The notes below the pieces were generated by a model. It had not been told where the DNA came from, made no database searches, and saw nothing but the letters and a program-made list of their open reading frames with translations. A stretch of 64,000 nucleotides of DNA from Alphaproteobacteria bacterium (GTDB taxonomy: Bacteria > Pseudomonadota > Alphaproteobacteria > Caulobacterales > Aquidulcibacteraceae). Below, piece by piece: positions 30,573 to 61,465 of the stretch (positions within the stretch are counted from its first letter, which is position 1; every line of letters begins with the position of its first letter). The translations under genes and the position numbers were made by a program. The stretch lies in the NCBI GenBank assembly GCA_018969015.1, contig JAGWZE010000005.1, forward strand, positions 62,001-126,000. The letters are read 5' to 3'.

Positions 30573-31733
30573 ATGGTTTCGGTTTTGCAGGTCACGCCCG
30601 CGCTCGACGCTGGCGGCGTCGAACGCACCACGATCGAGGTGGCGGAAGCCGTCGCGCGCGCGGGCGGCCGCGCCGTCGTGGCCAGCCGCGGCGGGCGGCT
30701 CGAGTCCGAGCTCGGCGCCGTGGGCGGCGAACTGGTGCGCCTGCCCTTGGACGCGAAGAATCCGGTCACGATCTGGCGCAACGCCGGCGCGCTGGCGGAC
30801 GTCGCCGCGAAGCGGCAGGTGCAGATCATCCATGCGCGGTCGCGCGCGCCGGCATGGTCGGCGTATTGGGCGTCGCGTCGGTTGCGGCTGCCATTCGTGA
30901 CCACGTATCACGGCATCTACAACGCGCGTTCGGCGTTCAAACGCGTGTACAATGGCGTTATGGCGCGAGGCGACGTGGTGATCGCCAATTCCGAATACAC
31001 GAGCGCGCATCTGATCGCCGCGCACGGGACCAATCCCGCGCGCGTCGTCGTGATTCCGCGCGGCGTCGATCTCGCGCGGTTCGATCCCGCGGCGGTCGAT
31101 CCGGCGCGTCCGGCAGCGCTGCGCGAAGCTTGGTTCGGCGCCGAGAAGCCCGCCACGACGCCATCGCCGCTCACGGTGATCCTGCCGGCGCGGCTGACGG
31201 CATGGAAAGGCCAGGGCCTGCTGATCGAGGCGGCGGCGCGGGTGGCGGCTCGCCACCCCGGCCTCGCGCGCTATGTCTTGGCCGGCGATCCGCAGGGGCG
31301 GGAGGCCTATGTCGAGGGGCTGCGGCGGCAGATCAGCGCGTCGGGTCTCCAGGGGCAGGTCGTCATCGCCGGCCATGTCGCCGACATGCCGGCCGCGTTC
31401 GCGGCAAGCGACGTGGCGGTGTTCCCGTCAACGGACCCGGAAGCCTTCGGGCGCGGCGCCGTCGAGGCGCAGGCGATGGGGCTGCCGGTCCTGGTCGCCG
31501 CCCATGGCGGGCTGACCGAAACGGTCGTGGACGGGCAAACGGGGTTTCACGTGACGCCGGGCGACACCGCGGCCTGGGCCGAGGCGCTGGAGCGGATCTT
31601 GCTTCTGCCCGCTCAAGCGCGCGCCGGGCTGGGTGGTGCGGGGCAGGCGCGCGCACGGGCGCTCTACAGCAAGACGGCGCTGCAAACGGCGACGCTGGCG
31701 GTGTACGACAGGGTCTTGAGGGAACGAGGATGA
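30573..31733 (+). CDS. GT4-family glycosyltransferase
   Basis: A 386-residue retaining glycosyltransferase with two Rossmann-like halves. The N-terminal loop PALDAGGVERTTIEVA and the C-terminal donor-site AWKGQGLLIEAAAR and EAFGRGAVEAQAMGLPVLV (the E-x7-E motif) are typical of GT4. No membrane helix. The stop overlaps the ATG of a GT9 gene, so the two probably act in one pathway of envelope polysaccharide or lipopolysaccharide assembly. The acceptor is unknown. Confidence 0.9.
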   Translation: MVSVLQVTPALDAGGVERTTIEVAEAVARAGGRAVVASRGGRLESELGAVGGELVRLPLDAKNPVTIWRNAGALADVAAKRQVQIIHARSRAPAWSAYWASRRLRLPFVTTYHGIYNARSAFKRVYNGVMARGDVVIANSEYTSAHLIAAHGTNPARVVVIPRGVDLARFDPAAVDPARPAALREAWFGAEKPATTPSPLTVILPARLTAWKGQGLLIEAAARVAARHPGLARYVLAGDPQGREAYVEGLRRQISASGLQGQVVIAGHVADMPAAFAASDVAVFPSTDPEAFGRGAVEAQAMGLPVLVAAHGGLTETVVDGQTGFHVTPGDTAAWAEALERILLLPAQARAGLGGAGQARARALYSKTALQTATLAVYDRVLRERG

Positions 31734-42036: not shown

Positions 42037-42648
42037 TTAGAGCGGCAACACCTGCCGGTCGCGCGTGAAGCTGATGTAGTTGACGTTCACGCCGGCCCCG
42101 AGGCCAACGCCCGAGCGCATCGGCGCGAGCACGATGTCGCCGGCCTGCTGATAGTTCACGCCGATGCCGGCGACGAAATAGGCCGAACCCGACACGCCGG
42201 GGAAGCGCTGATAGATCGCGTCCGGATCATTCAGATTGTAGACGAGAATGAACACCTTCGAGGCGTTCGCCTGCGTCTCGAAGCCGATCGAAGGCCCCTG
42301 CCAATACACTTCGCGCGTGGCGCCATTGCGCAGCGTGAGCGTGCCTTTGCCATAGCGCGCGCCGATGCCGATCGCGCCGGACGCCTCTTCGCCGCGGATG
42401 TAGCCGACGGGACGGCCCTGCTCGCGGAACACGCGCGCCACGGCCTGGCCGGCCGCTTCCGACGTCGTGCCGAAGAAATCGCCAGCGGCCCTCGCGATCT
42501 CGTCCTGGGTGTAGGTGTCCTGCGTGGTCGCGACCTGGCCGCCGGAGGAGTCGGCGCGCGGCGGGCGCGATCCCGCCTCGCGCGGCGTGGTCGAGCAGGC
42601 GGTGAGGGCGGCGATGGCGGCGAGAGAGACGAAGAGTTTCCGGATCAT
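42037..42648 (-). CDS. DUF1134/EipA-family envelope lipoprotein
   Basis: A 203-residue protein. A signal peptide ends in AALTAC with lipidated Cys18. After a Ser/Gln-rich linker the DUF1134 domain begins with DEIARAAGDFFGTTSEAAGQ and runs to the end, including YWQGPSIGFETQANASKVF and FPGVSGSAYFVAGIGVNY. The family's founding member EipA is a periplasmic beta-barrel-like protein needed for envelope integrity in Brucella. A paralogue lies directly upstream on the same strand. The lipoprotein form here distinguishes it from that paralogue. Confidence 0.87.
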   Translation of the reverse strand: MIRKLFVSLAAIAALTACSTTPREAGSRPPRADSSGGQVATTQDTYTQDEIARAAGDFFGTTSEAAGQAVARVFREQGRPVGYIRGEEASGAIGIGARYGKGTLTLRNGATREVYWQGPSIGFETQANASKVFILVYNLNDPDAIYQRFPGVSGSAYFVAGIGVNYQQAGDIVLAPMRSGVGLGAGVNVNYISFTRDRQVLPL

Positions 42649-42734: not shown

Positions 42735-43319
42735 CTAGAGCGGCACGACGCGCCGCTTCCGGGAGAAAGCGAGATAGCCGACATTGGCGCCGGCGCGGAA
42801 CCCGACACCCGCGCGCATCGGCGCCAATGTGATGTCGTCCGCGCGCAGATAGTTCACGCCGATGCCGCCGACGAAATAGGCCGAACCCTCAACGCCCGGA
42901 TAGCGGCGGAAGATCAGGTCCGGATCGCGCAGATTGTAGGCCAGCGTGAAGACCTTGGAGGCGTTGCCGCCGGTGTCGAAGCCGATCGACGGCCCCTGCC
43001 AGAACACCTTGCGGCGCGGGCCGGACTTCAAGAACAGCGTGCCGTCGCCGTAGCGCAACCCGACGCCGATCGCCCCGGCGACTTCCTCGCCGGCGACATA
43101 GGCCGTGGGGCGCCCGTGGTCGCGGAAGATGCGCTCGACCGCTTCGGCCGCCGCCCGCGCCGTCGTGCCGAAGAAGCCGGCGACGGCCGTGACGATCTCG
43201 TCTTCGCTGAATGTGTCGTTCTTCGACGCTCCATTCGGCTTGGCCCAGGCGGGCGCCGCGACGAGTCCCGCGAGCGCAACGGCGGCGGTGCGGCGCGTCA
43301 ATCGGCTAGTCTCAGTCAC
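42735..43319 (-). CDS. DUF1134/EipA-family exported protein (paralogue)
   Basis: A 194-residue protein whose signal peptide (SRLTRRTAAVALAGLVAAPAWA, residues 5-26) has a twin arginine and a probable AWA cleavage site, so export by Sec or Tat is possible. The domain matches its neighbour over nearly the full length: DEIVTAVAGFFGTTARAA, FWQGPSIGFDTGGNASKVF, YPGVEGSAYFVGGIGVNY, and both end in a basic stretch followed by VLPL or VVPL. It lies 86 bases upstream of the lipoprotein paralogue, and the pair looks like a tandem duplication. Confidence 0.87.
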   Translation of the reverse strand: MTETSRLTRRTAAVALAGLVAAPAWAKPNGASKNDTFSEDEIVTAVAGFFGTTARAAAEAVERIFRDHGRPTAYVAGEEVAGAIGVGLRYGDGTLFLKSGPRRKVFWQGPSIGFDTGGNASKVFTLAYNLRDPDLIFRRYPGVEGSAYFVGGIGVNYLRADDITLAPMRAGVGFRAGANVGYLAFSRKRRVVPL

Positions 43320-45628: not shown

Positions 45629-47434
45629 ATGATTTCCCGGGACAAGATCCGCAACTTCTCCATCGTGGCGCACATCGACCACGGCAAATCCACGCTGTCC
45701 GATCGCCTGATCCAGCTCACCGGCGGCCTGACCGCGCGGGAGATGACAGAACAGGTCCTCGACAACATGGATATCGAGCGCGAGCGGGGGATCACCATCA
45801 AGGCCCAGACCGTGCGCCTCGATTACAAGGCGAAGGACGGCGAGACCTACGTTCTCAACCTGATGGACACGCCCGGCCACGTCGACTTCGCGTACGAGGT
45901 GTCCCGTTCCCTCGCCGCGTGCGAGGGCGCCCTCCTCGTGGTGGACGCCTCCCAGGGCGTCGAGGCGCAGACGCTCGCGAACGTCTACCAGGCGCTCGAC
46001 AACAACCTCGAGATCGTTCCCGTTCTCAACAAGATCGATCTCCCGGCCGCCGAGCCGGACCGCGTGCGCGCCCAGATCGAAGACGTCATCGGCCTCGACG
46101 CCTCGCAGGCGGTGATGATCTCCGCAAAAACCGGGATCGGCATCGAAGAGGTTCTCGAAGCGATCGTCACCCGCCTGCCGCCGCCGAAGGAAGGCGATCC
46201 GGCAAAGCCCCTGAAGGCCATGCTCGTCGACGCCTGGTACGACCAGTACATGGGCGTGGTCGTCCTCGTGCGCGTGATCGACGGCGTTCTGAAGCGCGGC
46301 ATGCGCATCAAGATGATGGCGACCGACGCGGTGTACGGCGTCGAAAAGGTCGGCGCGTTCACGCCCAAGGCCACGGACGTCGAGGCGCTCGGCCCCGGCG
46401 AGATCGGCTTCATCACCGGCGCGATCAAGGAAGTCGCCGACGCGCGGGTGGGCGACACGATCACGCTCGAAAAGGGCGGGGTGACGCAGGCGCTGCCCGG
46501 CTTCAAGCCTGTGCAGCCGGTCGTGTTCTGCGGCCTGTTCCCGGTCGACGCCGCGAACTTCGAGGACCTGCGCGCCGCCATGGGCAAGCTGCGCCTCAAC
46601 GACGCCAGCTTCAGCTACGAAATGGAGACGAGCGCGGCGCTCGGCTTCGGCTTCCGCTGCGGTTTCCTTGGCCTGCTGCACCTCGAAATCATCCAGGAGC
46701 GCCTGACGCGCGAATTCAACCTGGACCTGATCGCGACGGCGCCGAGCGTGGTCTACCACGTGAAACTGACCGACGGCTCGATCCTCGAAATGCACAACCC
46801 GGCCGACATGCCGGACGCCGTGCGCGTCGACACCATCGCCGAGCCCTGGATCAAGGCGACGATCCTCACGCCCGACGAATATCTCGGCTCAATCCTGAAG
46901 CTCTGCCAGGAACGGCGCGGCGTGCAGCGCGACCTCTCCTATGTCGGCGCGCGGGCGATGCTCGTCTACGACTTGCCGCTCAACGAAGTCGTCTTCGATT
47001 TCTACGACCGTCTGAAGTCGGTCTCGAAAGGTTATGCGAGCTTCGACTACGCGATCGAGGAGTATCGCGAAGGCGACCTCGTGAAGATGTCGATCCTGGT
47101 CAACGAAGAGCCGGTCGATGCGCTCTCGATGCTCGTGCACCGCGCGCGGGCGGAAATGCGCGGCCGCGCCATGTGCGAGAAGCTCAAGGAGCTGATCCCG
47201 CAGCACCTCTTCAAGATCCCGATCCAGGCGGCCATCGGCGGCCGGGTCATCGCGCGCGAGACCATCTCGGCCCTGCGCAAGGACGTCACGGCCAAGTGCT
47301 ACGGCGGCGACGCCTCCCGCAAACGCAAGCTCCTCGACAAGCAGAAAGAGGGCAAGAAGCGGATGCGGCAGTTCGGCAAGGTCGAAATCCCGCAGGAAGC
47401 TTTCATCGCCGCGCTCAAGATGGACGCGGACTAG
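45629..47434 (+). CDS. lepA: elongation factor 4 (LepA), ribosome-associated GTPase
   Basis: A 601-residue translational GTPase that affects translation initiation and ribosome biogenesis and can back-translocate ribosomes. G1 is [11 protein letters not shown]3 DTPGHVDF, G4 [11 protein letters not shown]-like domains follow, with [19 protein letters not shown] and the LepA-specific C-terminal domain containing [18 protein letters not shown] and [17 protein letters not shown]. Full family length. No clear Shine-Dalgarno precedes the ATG, fitting a near-leaderless transcript. Confidence 0.97.
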
Positions 47435-47456
47435 CGGGCGAGAAAGCGGCAGGCTC

Positions 47457-47499
47457 CGTCATTCCGGGGCGGCCGCAGGCCGAACCCGGAACCCAGGGG
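47457..47499. repeat. family B repeat, single-arm copy 1
   Basis: The 43 bases from cgtcattccggggcggccgc to cccagggg are identical to the reverse complement of the right arm of copy 2 (51562-51721). A matching second arm is not seen here. It is followed by two copies of cccaatgga in tandem. It lies 23 bases after the lepA stop. Confidence 0.75.
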
Positions 47500-47866
47500 G
47501 CCCAATGGACCCAATGGACCTTGACCCCGCGTCGTGACCGCGCTGTGGGCGCCCGGCCTCGCCGCGCGCTCTTCCGCGCGCGTTGACGGCTATCCCACGC
47601 GGGATTCTCCAAGACCGCCTTGATATGGACAGCCTTGCACCCCCAAATAACACGCGTTTGTGGTTGGACATGATCGGCGAGATGACCGCCGTGCGGTCAC
47701 GTGGGTGCGCCGTAAGAGAAAGTGGGCGGTGGATCGCTCCCGTCTAGTGGGAATTCAGGTGCGTGCAAGTCTTCTGTGACATAGGAAGACGTATTGAAGC
47801 GATCGAAACTTGCGCATGGTTAATGCCGCTTGAGCTTCGTCAAGCTTGATCTTTGGTGGTGGTGAG
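47500..47866. other. gene-free stretch before the tailed unknown protein
   Basis: No gene, tRNA or known RNA is recognised in these 367 bases. They are less GC-rich than their surroundings in the second half. Two possible regulatory structures are present: GTCTTC-N10-GAAGAC at 47769-47790, with TGTGACATA between the arms, and GCTTGA-gcttcg-TCAAGC at 47828-47845, which ends 21 bases before the next ATG and could fold in the leader RNA. Confidence 0.5.
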
Positions 47867-48730
47867 ATGATCCAGGGTTCGGCCGTTCGGGACTATGTCG
47901 TCCTGCATGAGGTCTTCGGCGCAGCCGTCGAGCGCCTCCAACTCGGCGCGCCCGTCATTCACCGGCTGCGGCTCCCGCTCTCGTCGGGCAAGTGGCTGAT
48001 CCACGTCACCATTACCGCCGGCGTCTCCAACGTGTCGTTCTCCGCCAAGCTCGCCGAGGACATCCCCGGCGCGAAGCATCTGGGCGGTTCGCACAACGGC
48101 GCGATGAGCCCGCACTTCAGCCCCGCCACGATGACGGCCTTCATCGACGACGCGCCCGTCTCGTCAGACAAGCCGGTCGATCTCGTGGTGACGTTCGAAT
48201 CCGTCGGCCCGAACGCGATCGCCGTGCTCGGCCACCGCAGCATCTCCGTGATGGCGTGGAAGAAGGCCGATCCGGTCGTCACCGCCAAGCCGAAGGCCGA
48301 GAAGGCCGCCGCCGCTCCTGCAAAGCCGGCCGCCGTCGCCGCGCCGGCGCCAACGCCCGCGCCCGTGATCGAAGCGAAGCCCGTGAAGGCCCCGGCGCCC
48401 AAGGCGCCCGCCGAAAAGGCGCCCGAGAAGAAGGTCGCCGCCGCTCCGGCCCCGGCGCCCGCGCCGGTCCCGGCTGCGGCTCCGGTCGCCAAGAAAGAGC
48501 CGGTGAAGGCGAAGCCTGCGCCGGCGCCCGCCGCCGCGGCCCCCGCGCCGGCCGCCCCGGCGCCTGCGCCGGTTGCGGTGAAAACCCCGATCAAGCCCTC
48601 GGTCTCGGCCGTGAAGGTCAAGGCCTCGAGCAAGAGCGCCGCGGCCCCGGCGCCCGCCCCGGCCGCCGCCGCCAAAGCGGCTCCGGCCAAGCCCGCGCCG
48701 GCCAAAGCCGCCTCCGCGAAGAGAAAATAA
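47867..48730 (+). CDS. unknown N-terminal domain with long Ala/Pro/Lys tail
   Basis: A 287-residue protein I do not recognise. Residues 1-132 form a compact beta-rich domain without signal peptide: GKWLIHVTITAGVSNVSFSAKL and AVLGHRSISVMAWKK show alternating hydrophobics as in a jelly-roll sandwich. Residues about 133-287 are almost only Ala, Pro, Lys and Val, in PAPAP and KAAPAKPAPAK blocks reminiscent of histone H1-like or wall-spanning tails, ending in AKRK. The ATG at 47867 has GGTGAG upstream; an in-frame TTG lies at 47846. It could bind nucleic acid or polysaccharide; neither is shown. The next gene is a membrane TPR protein. Confidence 0.65.
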   Translation: MIQGSAVRDYVVLHEVFGAAVERLQLGAPVIHRLRLPLSSGKWLIHVTITAGVSNVSFSAKLAEDIPGAKHLGGSHNGAMSPHFSPATMTAFIDDAPVSSDKPVDLVVTFESVGPNAIAVLGHRSISVMAWKKADPVVTAKPKAEKAAAAPAKPAAVAAPAPTPAPVIEAKPVKAPAPKAPAEKAPEKKVAAAPAPAPAPVPAAAPVAKKEPVKAKPAPAPAAAAPAPAAPAPAPVAVKTPIKPSVSAVKVKASSKSAAAPAPAPAAAAKAAPAKPAPAKAASAKRK

Positions 48731-48910
48731 GCGCTTCCTCCACGGCGGCGCCGCGAAAGCGCCCGTATCGGGCCCTCTGCTGTCCGAACGGGCGTTTCGG
48801 CGTCCCGTGACCGTTTCGTTAGGTTCGTCACCGCCGGTCATTGTCGGGGCGTGGCGAAAAGGCTATGGCCTGTGTCTTCGACGGCACGGCCTCAAGACAG
48901 GGACGCGGCA

Positions 48911-49993
48911 ATGGACTCGGCGACGCCCGACATCCTCCGGCAATTCACGCGCCAAGTCATCGAGGCGTTCTTCATGTACCCGCATGTCGTTGCGGCGGTG
49001 ATCTCTGTGGTCGCCGCGGCGGTGATCGTGGGCGGGTACTGGGCGGCGCGCGGGTCGGTGCAGGGGGTGCGCTCGGCGCGCCTGGCGCTGAAGGCGCAGG
49101 CGCTGCGGGCGTCGAAGGATCACCGCGCCCTCGTGCTGATGGGCCGGATCGGCGGCGGCGGGGCCAAGCTGCGCACCGATCTCGCGAACGCCATCGAACA
49201 GAATTTCGGCGCCTACGCCTTCCACGCCCCGGTGCGGGTCGAGGCGTTTCCGATGAGCCTCCCGGCGCTGCAGGACGGCGCGCCCATCCAGCGCCGTCGC
49301 CGCGTCGCGTCCGCGGCGGTCGAGGCCCTGCAGAAGTCCGATGCGGACATCCTGATCTGGGGCCGCAAGCGCATGGGCGGCAAGGTCGATCTGTTCATCG
49401 CCACGCCGCCGCCGCCGAACCAGATCGAGGACTTCACCACGATCTCCTTCAAGCTGCGCAGCCGCGATTTCGACGCCGTCGCCGAGGCGATCGCCTATGC
49501 CTGCGCCCGCCGCGCGCGGCCCGTGCTCAACAAGCCGCAGGACTACAAGCCCGAAAAGCTGCAGCCGATCGTCGAGGCGCTCGAAAAGTTCGTCACCGAT
49601 CCGCCGGCCAGCCTGTCGGATGGCGCTCGTCTCGAGATCCTGTCGGATTTCGCCTCCGGCGCCCTCAGCCTCGGCGAGCGGGGCGGCAACACGGGATGGC
49701 TCTCACGCGCGCTCGACGCCCGCCGCCAGTATCTCGACCGTCTCGACCGCGCCGCCGATCCGGCCGCCTGGGGCCGGGCGCAACAGGAAGTGGGCCGTGC
49801 GCTCGCCGCGCTCGGCGAACGCGAAGCGGACCGCGCCAAGCTCGAAGAGGCCGTCGGCATCCTCAAGACCTCGATCGACGCCCTGCGCGCCACCGAAAGC
49901 CTGCAGAGCGCCGAAGTGGCGATGCGCGCCCTCTCGCGGGCGGAGCAGACCCTCGCCGCCCGCCGCCGCGTCGGCCTGCGCTGGCCGGTTTAG
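48911..49993 (+). CDS. membrane-anchored protein with C-terminal TPR-like repeats
   Basis: About 360 residues. One membrane helix (residues about 24-44, HVVAAVISVVAAAVIVGGYW) is followed by a basic region and a cytoplasmic alpha/beta region (LVLMGRIGGGGAKLRTDL, DADILIWGRKRMGGKVDLF), then helical repeats resembling TPRs (WGRAQQEVGRALAALGERE, KLEEAVGILKTSIDALRA). The ATG at 48911 is chosen over a GTG at 48851 because it gives a more usual N-terminus. Proteins with this layout are generally annotated only as TPR-repeat proteins; function unknown. Confidence 0.7.
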   Translation: MDSATPDILRQFTRQVIEAFFMYPHVVAAVISVVAAAVIVGGYWAARGSVQGVRSARLALKAQALRASKDHRALVLMGRIGGGGAKLRTDLANAIEQNFGAYAFHAPVRVEAFPMSLPALQDGAPIQRRRRVASAAVEALQKSDADILIWGRKRMGGKVDLFIATPPPPNQIEDFTTISFKLRSRDFDAVAEAIAYACARRARPVLNKPQDYKPEKLQPIVEALEKFVTDPPASLSDGARLEILSDFASGALSLGERGGNTGWLSRALDARRQYLDRLDRAADPAAWGRAQQEVGRALAALGEREADRAKLEEAVGILKTSIDALRATESLQSAEVAMRALSRAEQTLAARRRVGLRWPV

Positions 49994-51517: not shown

Positions 51518-51561
51518 GCGCACGCGAAGTCTCCGCGACAGTTCAGACGCACAAATCGGTC

Positions 51562-51721
51562 CGTCATTCCGGGGCGCGCGGCACGCGCGAACCCGGAACC
51601 CAGGCGCCGGAACCCAGGTGACCGGGAGCCCGCGATCGCGCGCGTTGGCGCATCGAATGGTCCGGACAGCCCATGTGGCCCCTGGGTTCCGGGTTCGGCC
51701 TGCGGCCGCCCCGGAATGACG
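51562..51721. repeat. family B interspersed inverted repeat, copy 2
   Basis: A 160-bp element filling most of the 341-base gap between gpx and mdh. Ends are cgtcattccgg and ccggaatgacg; gaacccggaacccagg pairs with cctgggttccgggttc inside. The rest of the gap holds a CGCCGG-N5-CCGGCG hairpin at 51737-51753 and the mdh promoter candidate. Confidence 0.85.
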
Positions 51722-51781
51722 AAGCGTATGATTTTTCGCCGGGGTCACCGGCGCCTCGGACCCTCCCAGACCTGCGCCGCA

Positions 51782-61294: not shown

Positions 61295-61303
61295 GCCGCG
61301 CCC

Positions 61304-61465
61304 CGTCATTCCGGAGCGGCCGAAGGCCGAACCCGGAACCCAGGGGCAAAATCACGAACGAGAAACCCGCCCTTGGCGGGCGGCGCTGGTGAGTGATCGG
61401 CAAGCGGTGGCCGGCCCAGTCCCCTGGGTTCCGGGTTCGCGCGTTCCGCGCGCGCCGGAATGACG
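61304..61465. repeat. family B interspersed inverted repeat, copy 3
   Basis: A 162-bp element filling half of the 315-base gap between the MFS gene and sucC. Ends are cgtcattccgg and ccggaatgacg; gaacccggaacccaggggc pairs with cccctgggttccgggttc. It starts ten bases after the MFS stop. The remainder of the gap holds only the sucC promoter candidate. Confidence 0.85.

Follow-up and report, generated by a model that had tools for sequence, protein, structure and literature searches.

The 64,000-nucleotide stretch of DNA analysed here (the window) carries, at positions 47867–48730 of the forward strand, an open reading frame of 287 residues that joins a 132-residue N-terminal domain to a 155-residue C-terminal tail. 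It is preceded by a gene that we take to be lepA (45629–47434) and ends in a TAA stop codon at 48728–48730 (+); a TTG at 47846, if used as the start, would lengthen the protein by seven residues. Codon use was scored with a model trained on the clear genes of the window. The reference consisted of 72 right-frame pieces, which were scored on their own training genes and ranged from 0.305 to 0.815 bits per codon, and 360 wrong-frame pieces of known genes, with a maximum of 0.018. The domain scored 0.383 bits per codon (its five other frames, ≤ −0.278), and its GC content by codon position is 0.64/0.46/0.90. The tail scored 0.248 (five other frames, ≤ 0.048), slightly under the right-frame range, as might be expected given its strongly biased composition. 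The same frame is best in both parts. The 287-residue frame is very probably coding, and we consider this orphan gene real and its product probably translated. The coordinates, frame and domain-plus-tail layout given in the original prediction, which was made from the letters alone, are confirmed.

The same prediction reported no signal peptide, and this was borne out: the mean hydropathy of 19-residue stretches starting at residues 1–22 does not exceed 0.85. Nor is there space for an added signal peptide, since the frame is closed by a TGA at 47831, 36 bases before the start. No membrane segment was found either, the highest 19-residue hydropathy mean in the whole protein being 1.32, inside the domain. 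The protein has no cysteine and hence no lipobox.

Downstream, at about 48851–49993 (+), lies an uncharacterised gene without a Pfam match that is present in 42 of the 60 family genomes, our own included; beyond it, on the opposite strand, is a PMSR-family gene (msrA). By eye, the protein of 48851–49993 (+) has one membrane segment near its N-terminus; in named genome contigs, none of 102 pattern stretches for this protein was confirmed. We compared the stretch from lepA to the downstream gene in 20 relatives, together with 58 shorter loci around either gene. These 78 relatives' loci (L022–L050 and L052–L100; 424,423 bases) contain no tblastn match to the domain at E 1 and no Ala/Pro/Lys-tailed frame, by which we mean an open frame, at least 100 residues long, in which some run of 60 residues is at least 70% Ala+Pro+Lys and includes at least 5 Lys and at least 6 Pro. 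When Val was counted too, under a less strict criterion, L085 and L096 showed Ala/Val-rich frames, which look like antisense readings. In two relatives with short intervals, G021 and G016 (L081 and L082), other genes are present between lepA and the downstream gene: a DUF5615 gene and one unmatched gene among the frames read in G021, and a Zeta_toxin/AAA_33 gene and a DUF29 gene in G016. Since these two relatives, the ones read in detail, differ in what they carry, the place beside lepA looks like a variable slot. On the other side of lepA, 42037–42648 (−) and 42735–43319 (−) are two adjacent EipA-family (PF06577) paralogues; judged by eye, the first begins like a lipoprotein.

Is expression of the gene regulated through its leader? 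The leader, from the lepA stop to the start codon (47435–47866, +), had been said to hold two inverted repeats suggestive of regulated expression. Short hairpins do occur, at 47563–47582, 47683–47699, 47769–47790 and 47828–47845. They comprise seven perfect 6-bp stems, which overlap and group into four clusters, an enrichment over shuffled sequences (mean 1.4; 4 of 500 shuffles reach seven). The step from stems to regulation is weak, however: the predicted RNA fold of positions 47600–47870 is no better than that of shuffles (z 0.28), and the leader is partly a dispersed repeat. The one terminator-like site in the leader is the hairpin at 47828–47845, and 1.5 such sites are expected in shuffles. 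A consensus search of the leader gave no sigma-70-like promoter, and Rfam, searched to E 1, matched nothing in the leader region.

Used as a query against its own genome, with 40 of the 140 candidates scored, the leader has at least 78 matches, itself included. The 77 non-self matches listed cover only query bases 10–72 (47449–47511 of the window) and mark a dispersed repeat of about 46 bp, which we presume to be REP-like (REP/BIME or MITE) and whose leader copy is at 47453–47501 (+). The listed copies stand mostly in inverted pairs about 10–90 bases apart. Such pairs in the window are 51560–51604 (+) with 51679–51725 (−), and 61300–61346 (+) with 61421–61465 (−). The leader copy has no partner arm among the matches listed.

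Residues 1–132 had been described as impossible to place by family, and this holds: a profile search to E 1 matched them to no family of Pfam or NCBIfam. PADLOC likewise gave no family up to E 1, and the single PHROGs match covers 19 residues at E 0.13. Among PDB sequences (phmmer, up to E 10) the sole match to the domain was Ika8, at E 0.23, with BC2L-CN and PLTL absent; the full protein matched no PDB sequence at E 0.001. Genomes were searched with residues 1–132 in overlapping sets, each of which includes the own genome. Only the own genome was matched among 41 relatives at E 0.01, among 385 genomes at class level at E 0.001, and among 398 at phylum level at E 0.001. At family level 15 of 60 genomes were matched at E 1 (best non-self E 0.0105), and at order level three of 398 at E 0.01, the two non-self matches having E-values of 0.008 and 0.010. 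We take the non-self family and order matches to be chance: nine of the 19 loci were read, and there the matches are stop-broken, antisense to an apparent real gene, or in seemingly unrelated proteins, one of which is presumably a flagellar hook-cap-like protein. None of 88 pattern stretches in named genome contigs and none of 8 in viral contigs was confirmed for residues 1–132, and tblastn of plasmids and phages to E 1 gave no match. No credible relative emerged, then, from any of the sets searched, whether of genomes, plasmids, phages or viruses. The family set comprises 60 genomes from 14 genera, with the own genome as the sole member of its genus, so that "orphan" here means absent from other sampled genera, not from unsampled close kin. 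With no homologues, there is no conservation to support any function. The papers listed by our literature search include no described protein of this kind, and a search on histone-like tails gave nothing relevant beyond AlgP.

The N-terminal domain (47867–48262, +) has an ordinary composition, a pI of 7.1 and no net charge. AlphaFold2, run on the lone domain sequence, gave a best model with a pLDDT of 72.9, a pTM of 0.70, ten strands and no helix; four of the five domain models have mean pLDDT values of 52–63. Most strands are retained at lower confidence in the full-length model, in which residues 20–24 become a 5-residue helix. The beta-rich character claimed for this domain is therefore supported by prediction, as a beta sandwich of modest confidence. 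In Foldseek searches with the domain model, nothing in the PDB reached E 0.001; eight BFVD entries did (best 1.8e-4). Among these are a phage tail fibre, a collagen-like protein of a giant virus and several uncharacterised proteins of phages.

VIA-align 2, run on the highest-ranked chains, placed the C-terminal domain of Pgp3 first for the domain model (Z 10.1, 2.5 Å, 112 residues). Furin/Kex2 P domains reached a Z of about 9, PLTL 8.8 (2.9 Å, 112 residues) and BC2L-CN 8.7 (3.0 Å, 112 residues); the PLTL and BC2L-CN chains together span Z 8.3–8.8 over 112–114 residues at 2.9–3.1 Å. EDA-A1, BclA, 4-1BBL, BxpB/ExsF and C1q heads are among the lower neighbours (Z 7.4–7.8). For the full-length model the values are 8.9 for Kex2, 7.6–8.2 for Pgp3 and 7.9–8.1 for BC2L-CN and PLTL. 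The order of neighbours is unstable, with Pgp3 leading for the domain model and Kex2 for the full-length model, and Z values of 8–10 are only somewhat over the best values of 7–8 typical of models without a clear match. Furthermore, the furin/Kex2 P domains, which are not TNF folds, rank equal to or above the TNF-like lectins with both models. By their titles, 22 of the 50 rows for the domain model are of TNF/C1q type (Pgp3 being counted as TNF-like, on our assumption), 16 are furin/Kex2 P domains, and the rest are mainly viral or phage jelly rolls. From these counts, a jelly-roll fold of residues 1–132 is probable, and the TNF/C1q type is its likelier, though not proven, sort.

Does this fold indicate sugar binding? 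The original prediction held that a jelly-roll match would support it. Jelly-roll neighbours were found with both AlphaFold2 models, but the fucose pocket of the nearest lectins is mostly without an evident counterpart. In PLTL, fucose is held by Arg91, Arg117, Thr80 and Ser89 and is stacked on Tyr53. We compared the pocket by aligned ranges only (model residues 11–132 to PLTL 2–135); by the aligned end points, Arg91, Arg117 and Tyr53 of PLTL would fall at about residues 90, 115 and 57 of the domain. Arginine occurs in the domain only at 8, 23, 33, 35 and 124, with none between 36 and 123, and the sole tyrosine is residue 10. No arginine is close to the position corresponding to Arg91, nor any tyrosine to that of Tyr53, and Arg124 is some ten residues off the place of Arg117. 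Most of the fucose-holding residues of PLTL thus appear to have no evident counterpart, and the fold by itself lends no support to carbohydrate binding. On this evidence, the domain does not belong to the fucose-binding PLTL/BC2L-CN group; it may have another ligand or a different pocket make-up.

The tail (residues 133–287; 48263–48727, +) consists of 62 Ala, 36 Pro, 25 Lys and 14 Val among 155 residues (137, or 88%), has a net charge of +20 and a pI of 10.5, and ends in SAKRK. Runs of Ala and Pro are up to 19 residues long. The full-length AlphaFold2 model predicts it to be unstructured, with block pLDDT values of 43–59 and one 4-residue helix past residue 133. An Ala/Pro/Lys(/Val) tail of this length, with an AKRK end, had been described correctly. 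Its DNA is rich in imperfect short tandem repeats of 3–21 bp (13 rows, some overlapping). By the criterion used for the relatives' loci, no other such tail occurs in 464 kb of the same genome, namely the window plus 400 kb from three contigs, about 14% of the genome. A search of the genome with the tail itself gave no convincing second copy among the 150 of 545 candidates scored; the matches besides self (E 0.004, 0.0085 and 3.7) were taken as low-complexity, and the one examined is at 31462–31728 of the window. Histone-H1-like polyanion binding is the most natural reading of the tail's candidate role. However, its long Ala/Pro runs resemble spacers as much as a grip on DNA.

What might such a protein do? 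The reading that we prefer, and hold only tentatively, is that of a lineage-specific cytoplasmic protein in which a jelly-roll head, probably of TNF/C1q type, carries a 155-residue cationic tail that binds an internal polyanion. The analysis shows a coding-like frame, the absence of a signal peptide, and the composition and charge of the tail; the fold and the disorder of the tail are predicted, and the trimer, the location and the ligand are inferred. The heads would form an oligomer, probably the trimer known from other TNF-type folds, in which the N- and C-termini face one side. From each trimer three tails, with a charge of about +60 in all, would then project and bind DNA, RNA or polyphosphate through multivalent charge, in a role akin to the one proposed for the AlgP and PhaF tails, that of linking granules to the nucleoid. 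In favour of this reading, a beta sandwich with TNF/C1q-type neighbours was obtained in both AlphaFold2 runs, with most strands in common. The host genome also has matches over the cut-off to polyphosphate kinase (PF02503) and Phasin_2 (PF09361), which makes granules possible and nothing more. TNF/C1q-type jelly rolls in bacteria and phages are best known extracellularly, as lectins, spore-surface proteins and receptor-binding domains. It is unlikely, in our view, that the full picture applies, in which a trimeric TNF/C1q-type head with three H1-like tails acts in the cytoplasm as a "tassel", condensing or tethering DNA or polyphosphate, arose independently of the helical AlgP/PhaF proteins, and occurs in one lineage so far.

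Several other explanations have to be weighed. The gene could be cargo of the variable chromosomal slot between lepA and the downstream gene, as a phage-related or conflict-system part. The presence of other genes in the interval in G021 and G016 fits this idea, and the structural neighbours of the domain include phage tail and baseplate domains. Against it, the phage and viral collections gave no credible match and PADLOC none, and codon use fits the host. Moreover, phage receptor-binding proteins are not known for cationic tails of low complexity. We regard the cargo explanation as unlikely. Another doubtful alternative is a young or fast-drifting gene with little specific function, in which slippage in GC-rich DNA lengthened the tail. 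Both the want of credible relatives in the sets searched and the tandem repeats in the tail DNA are what this would predict. In contrast, the codon pattern is that of a maintained gene, with the same best frame in domain and tail, and a compact fold such as that predicted here would be unexpected from random sequence.

Two further alternatives place the protein outside the cytoplasm. Ala/Pro runs in wall-spanning linkers are extended rods, and the runs in this tail would suit the wall-spanning linker that the original prediction had suggested, taken here as TonB- or TolA-like. This is disfavoured by the absence of an export signal, membrane anchor or lipobox, the most hydrophobic segment being within the domain, and we consider it very improbable. 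The protein could also be a non-classically exported lectin, with a TNF-like head that binds an extracellular glycan and a tail that acts as a linker or as an anchor to the anionic envelope. BC2L-CN and PLTL are structural neighbours of both models, and BC2L-C is a precedent: it has an N-terminal TNF-like region followed by a 28-residue linker and lacks a canonical secretion signal, yet it has been located both at the surface and in the medium (PMC3164656). This precedent also argues against a cytoplasmic location for the product studied here. However, neither lectin is matched by sequence, the arginine and tyrosine positions do not fit the fucose residues of PLTL, and the head is followed by the tail, not by a second, anchoring lectin domain. 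An exported lectin is thus, we believe, rather improbable.

If the polyanion-binding reading is correct, the joining of a cytoplasmic TNF/C1q-type head to an H1-like tail would be a design not seen before for proteins that bind or tether polyanions. As a single orphan gene with no evidence of conservation, the case is of use mainly as a candidate for testing.

How does the protein compare with known systems? The highest Z values, for the C-terminal domain of Pgp3 (10.1) and the furin/Kex2 P domains (about 9), extend over 111–116 residues, but this likeness is structural only, with 4–9% identity and a different architecture. The N-terminal domain of BC2L-C (2wq4, 6zzw) and PLTL (9ib6), which are 52% identical to each other, share with our protein an approximately 130-residue TNF-type jelly roll, here predicted, at the very N-terminus; in PLTL, two trimers meet via opposing N- and C-termini (PMC12914763), in line with the one-sided termini proposed above for the heads. 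BC2L-C also resembles our protein in lacking a canonical secretion signal and in having a linker-like stretch after the head. Unlike these lectins, our protein has no detectable sequence similarity to either, and it has a cationic tail where BC2L-C has its second lectin domain. With AlgP and PhaF of Pseudomonas it shares the plan of an N-terminal domain followed by a disordered (here predicted) Lys/Pro/Ala-rich C-terminal tail, and the 155 residues of its tail are close to the 154 of the AlgP repeat region. AlgP, however, has 25 perfect copies of KPAA in that region, whereas our tail has one KPAA and no KPVA, and lysine makes up 16% of it as against 25% of a perfect KPAA repeat. The heads differ as well: that of AlgP is predicted to be helical, and that of our protein to be beta.
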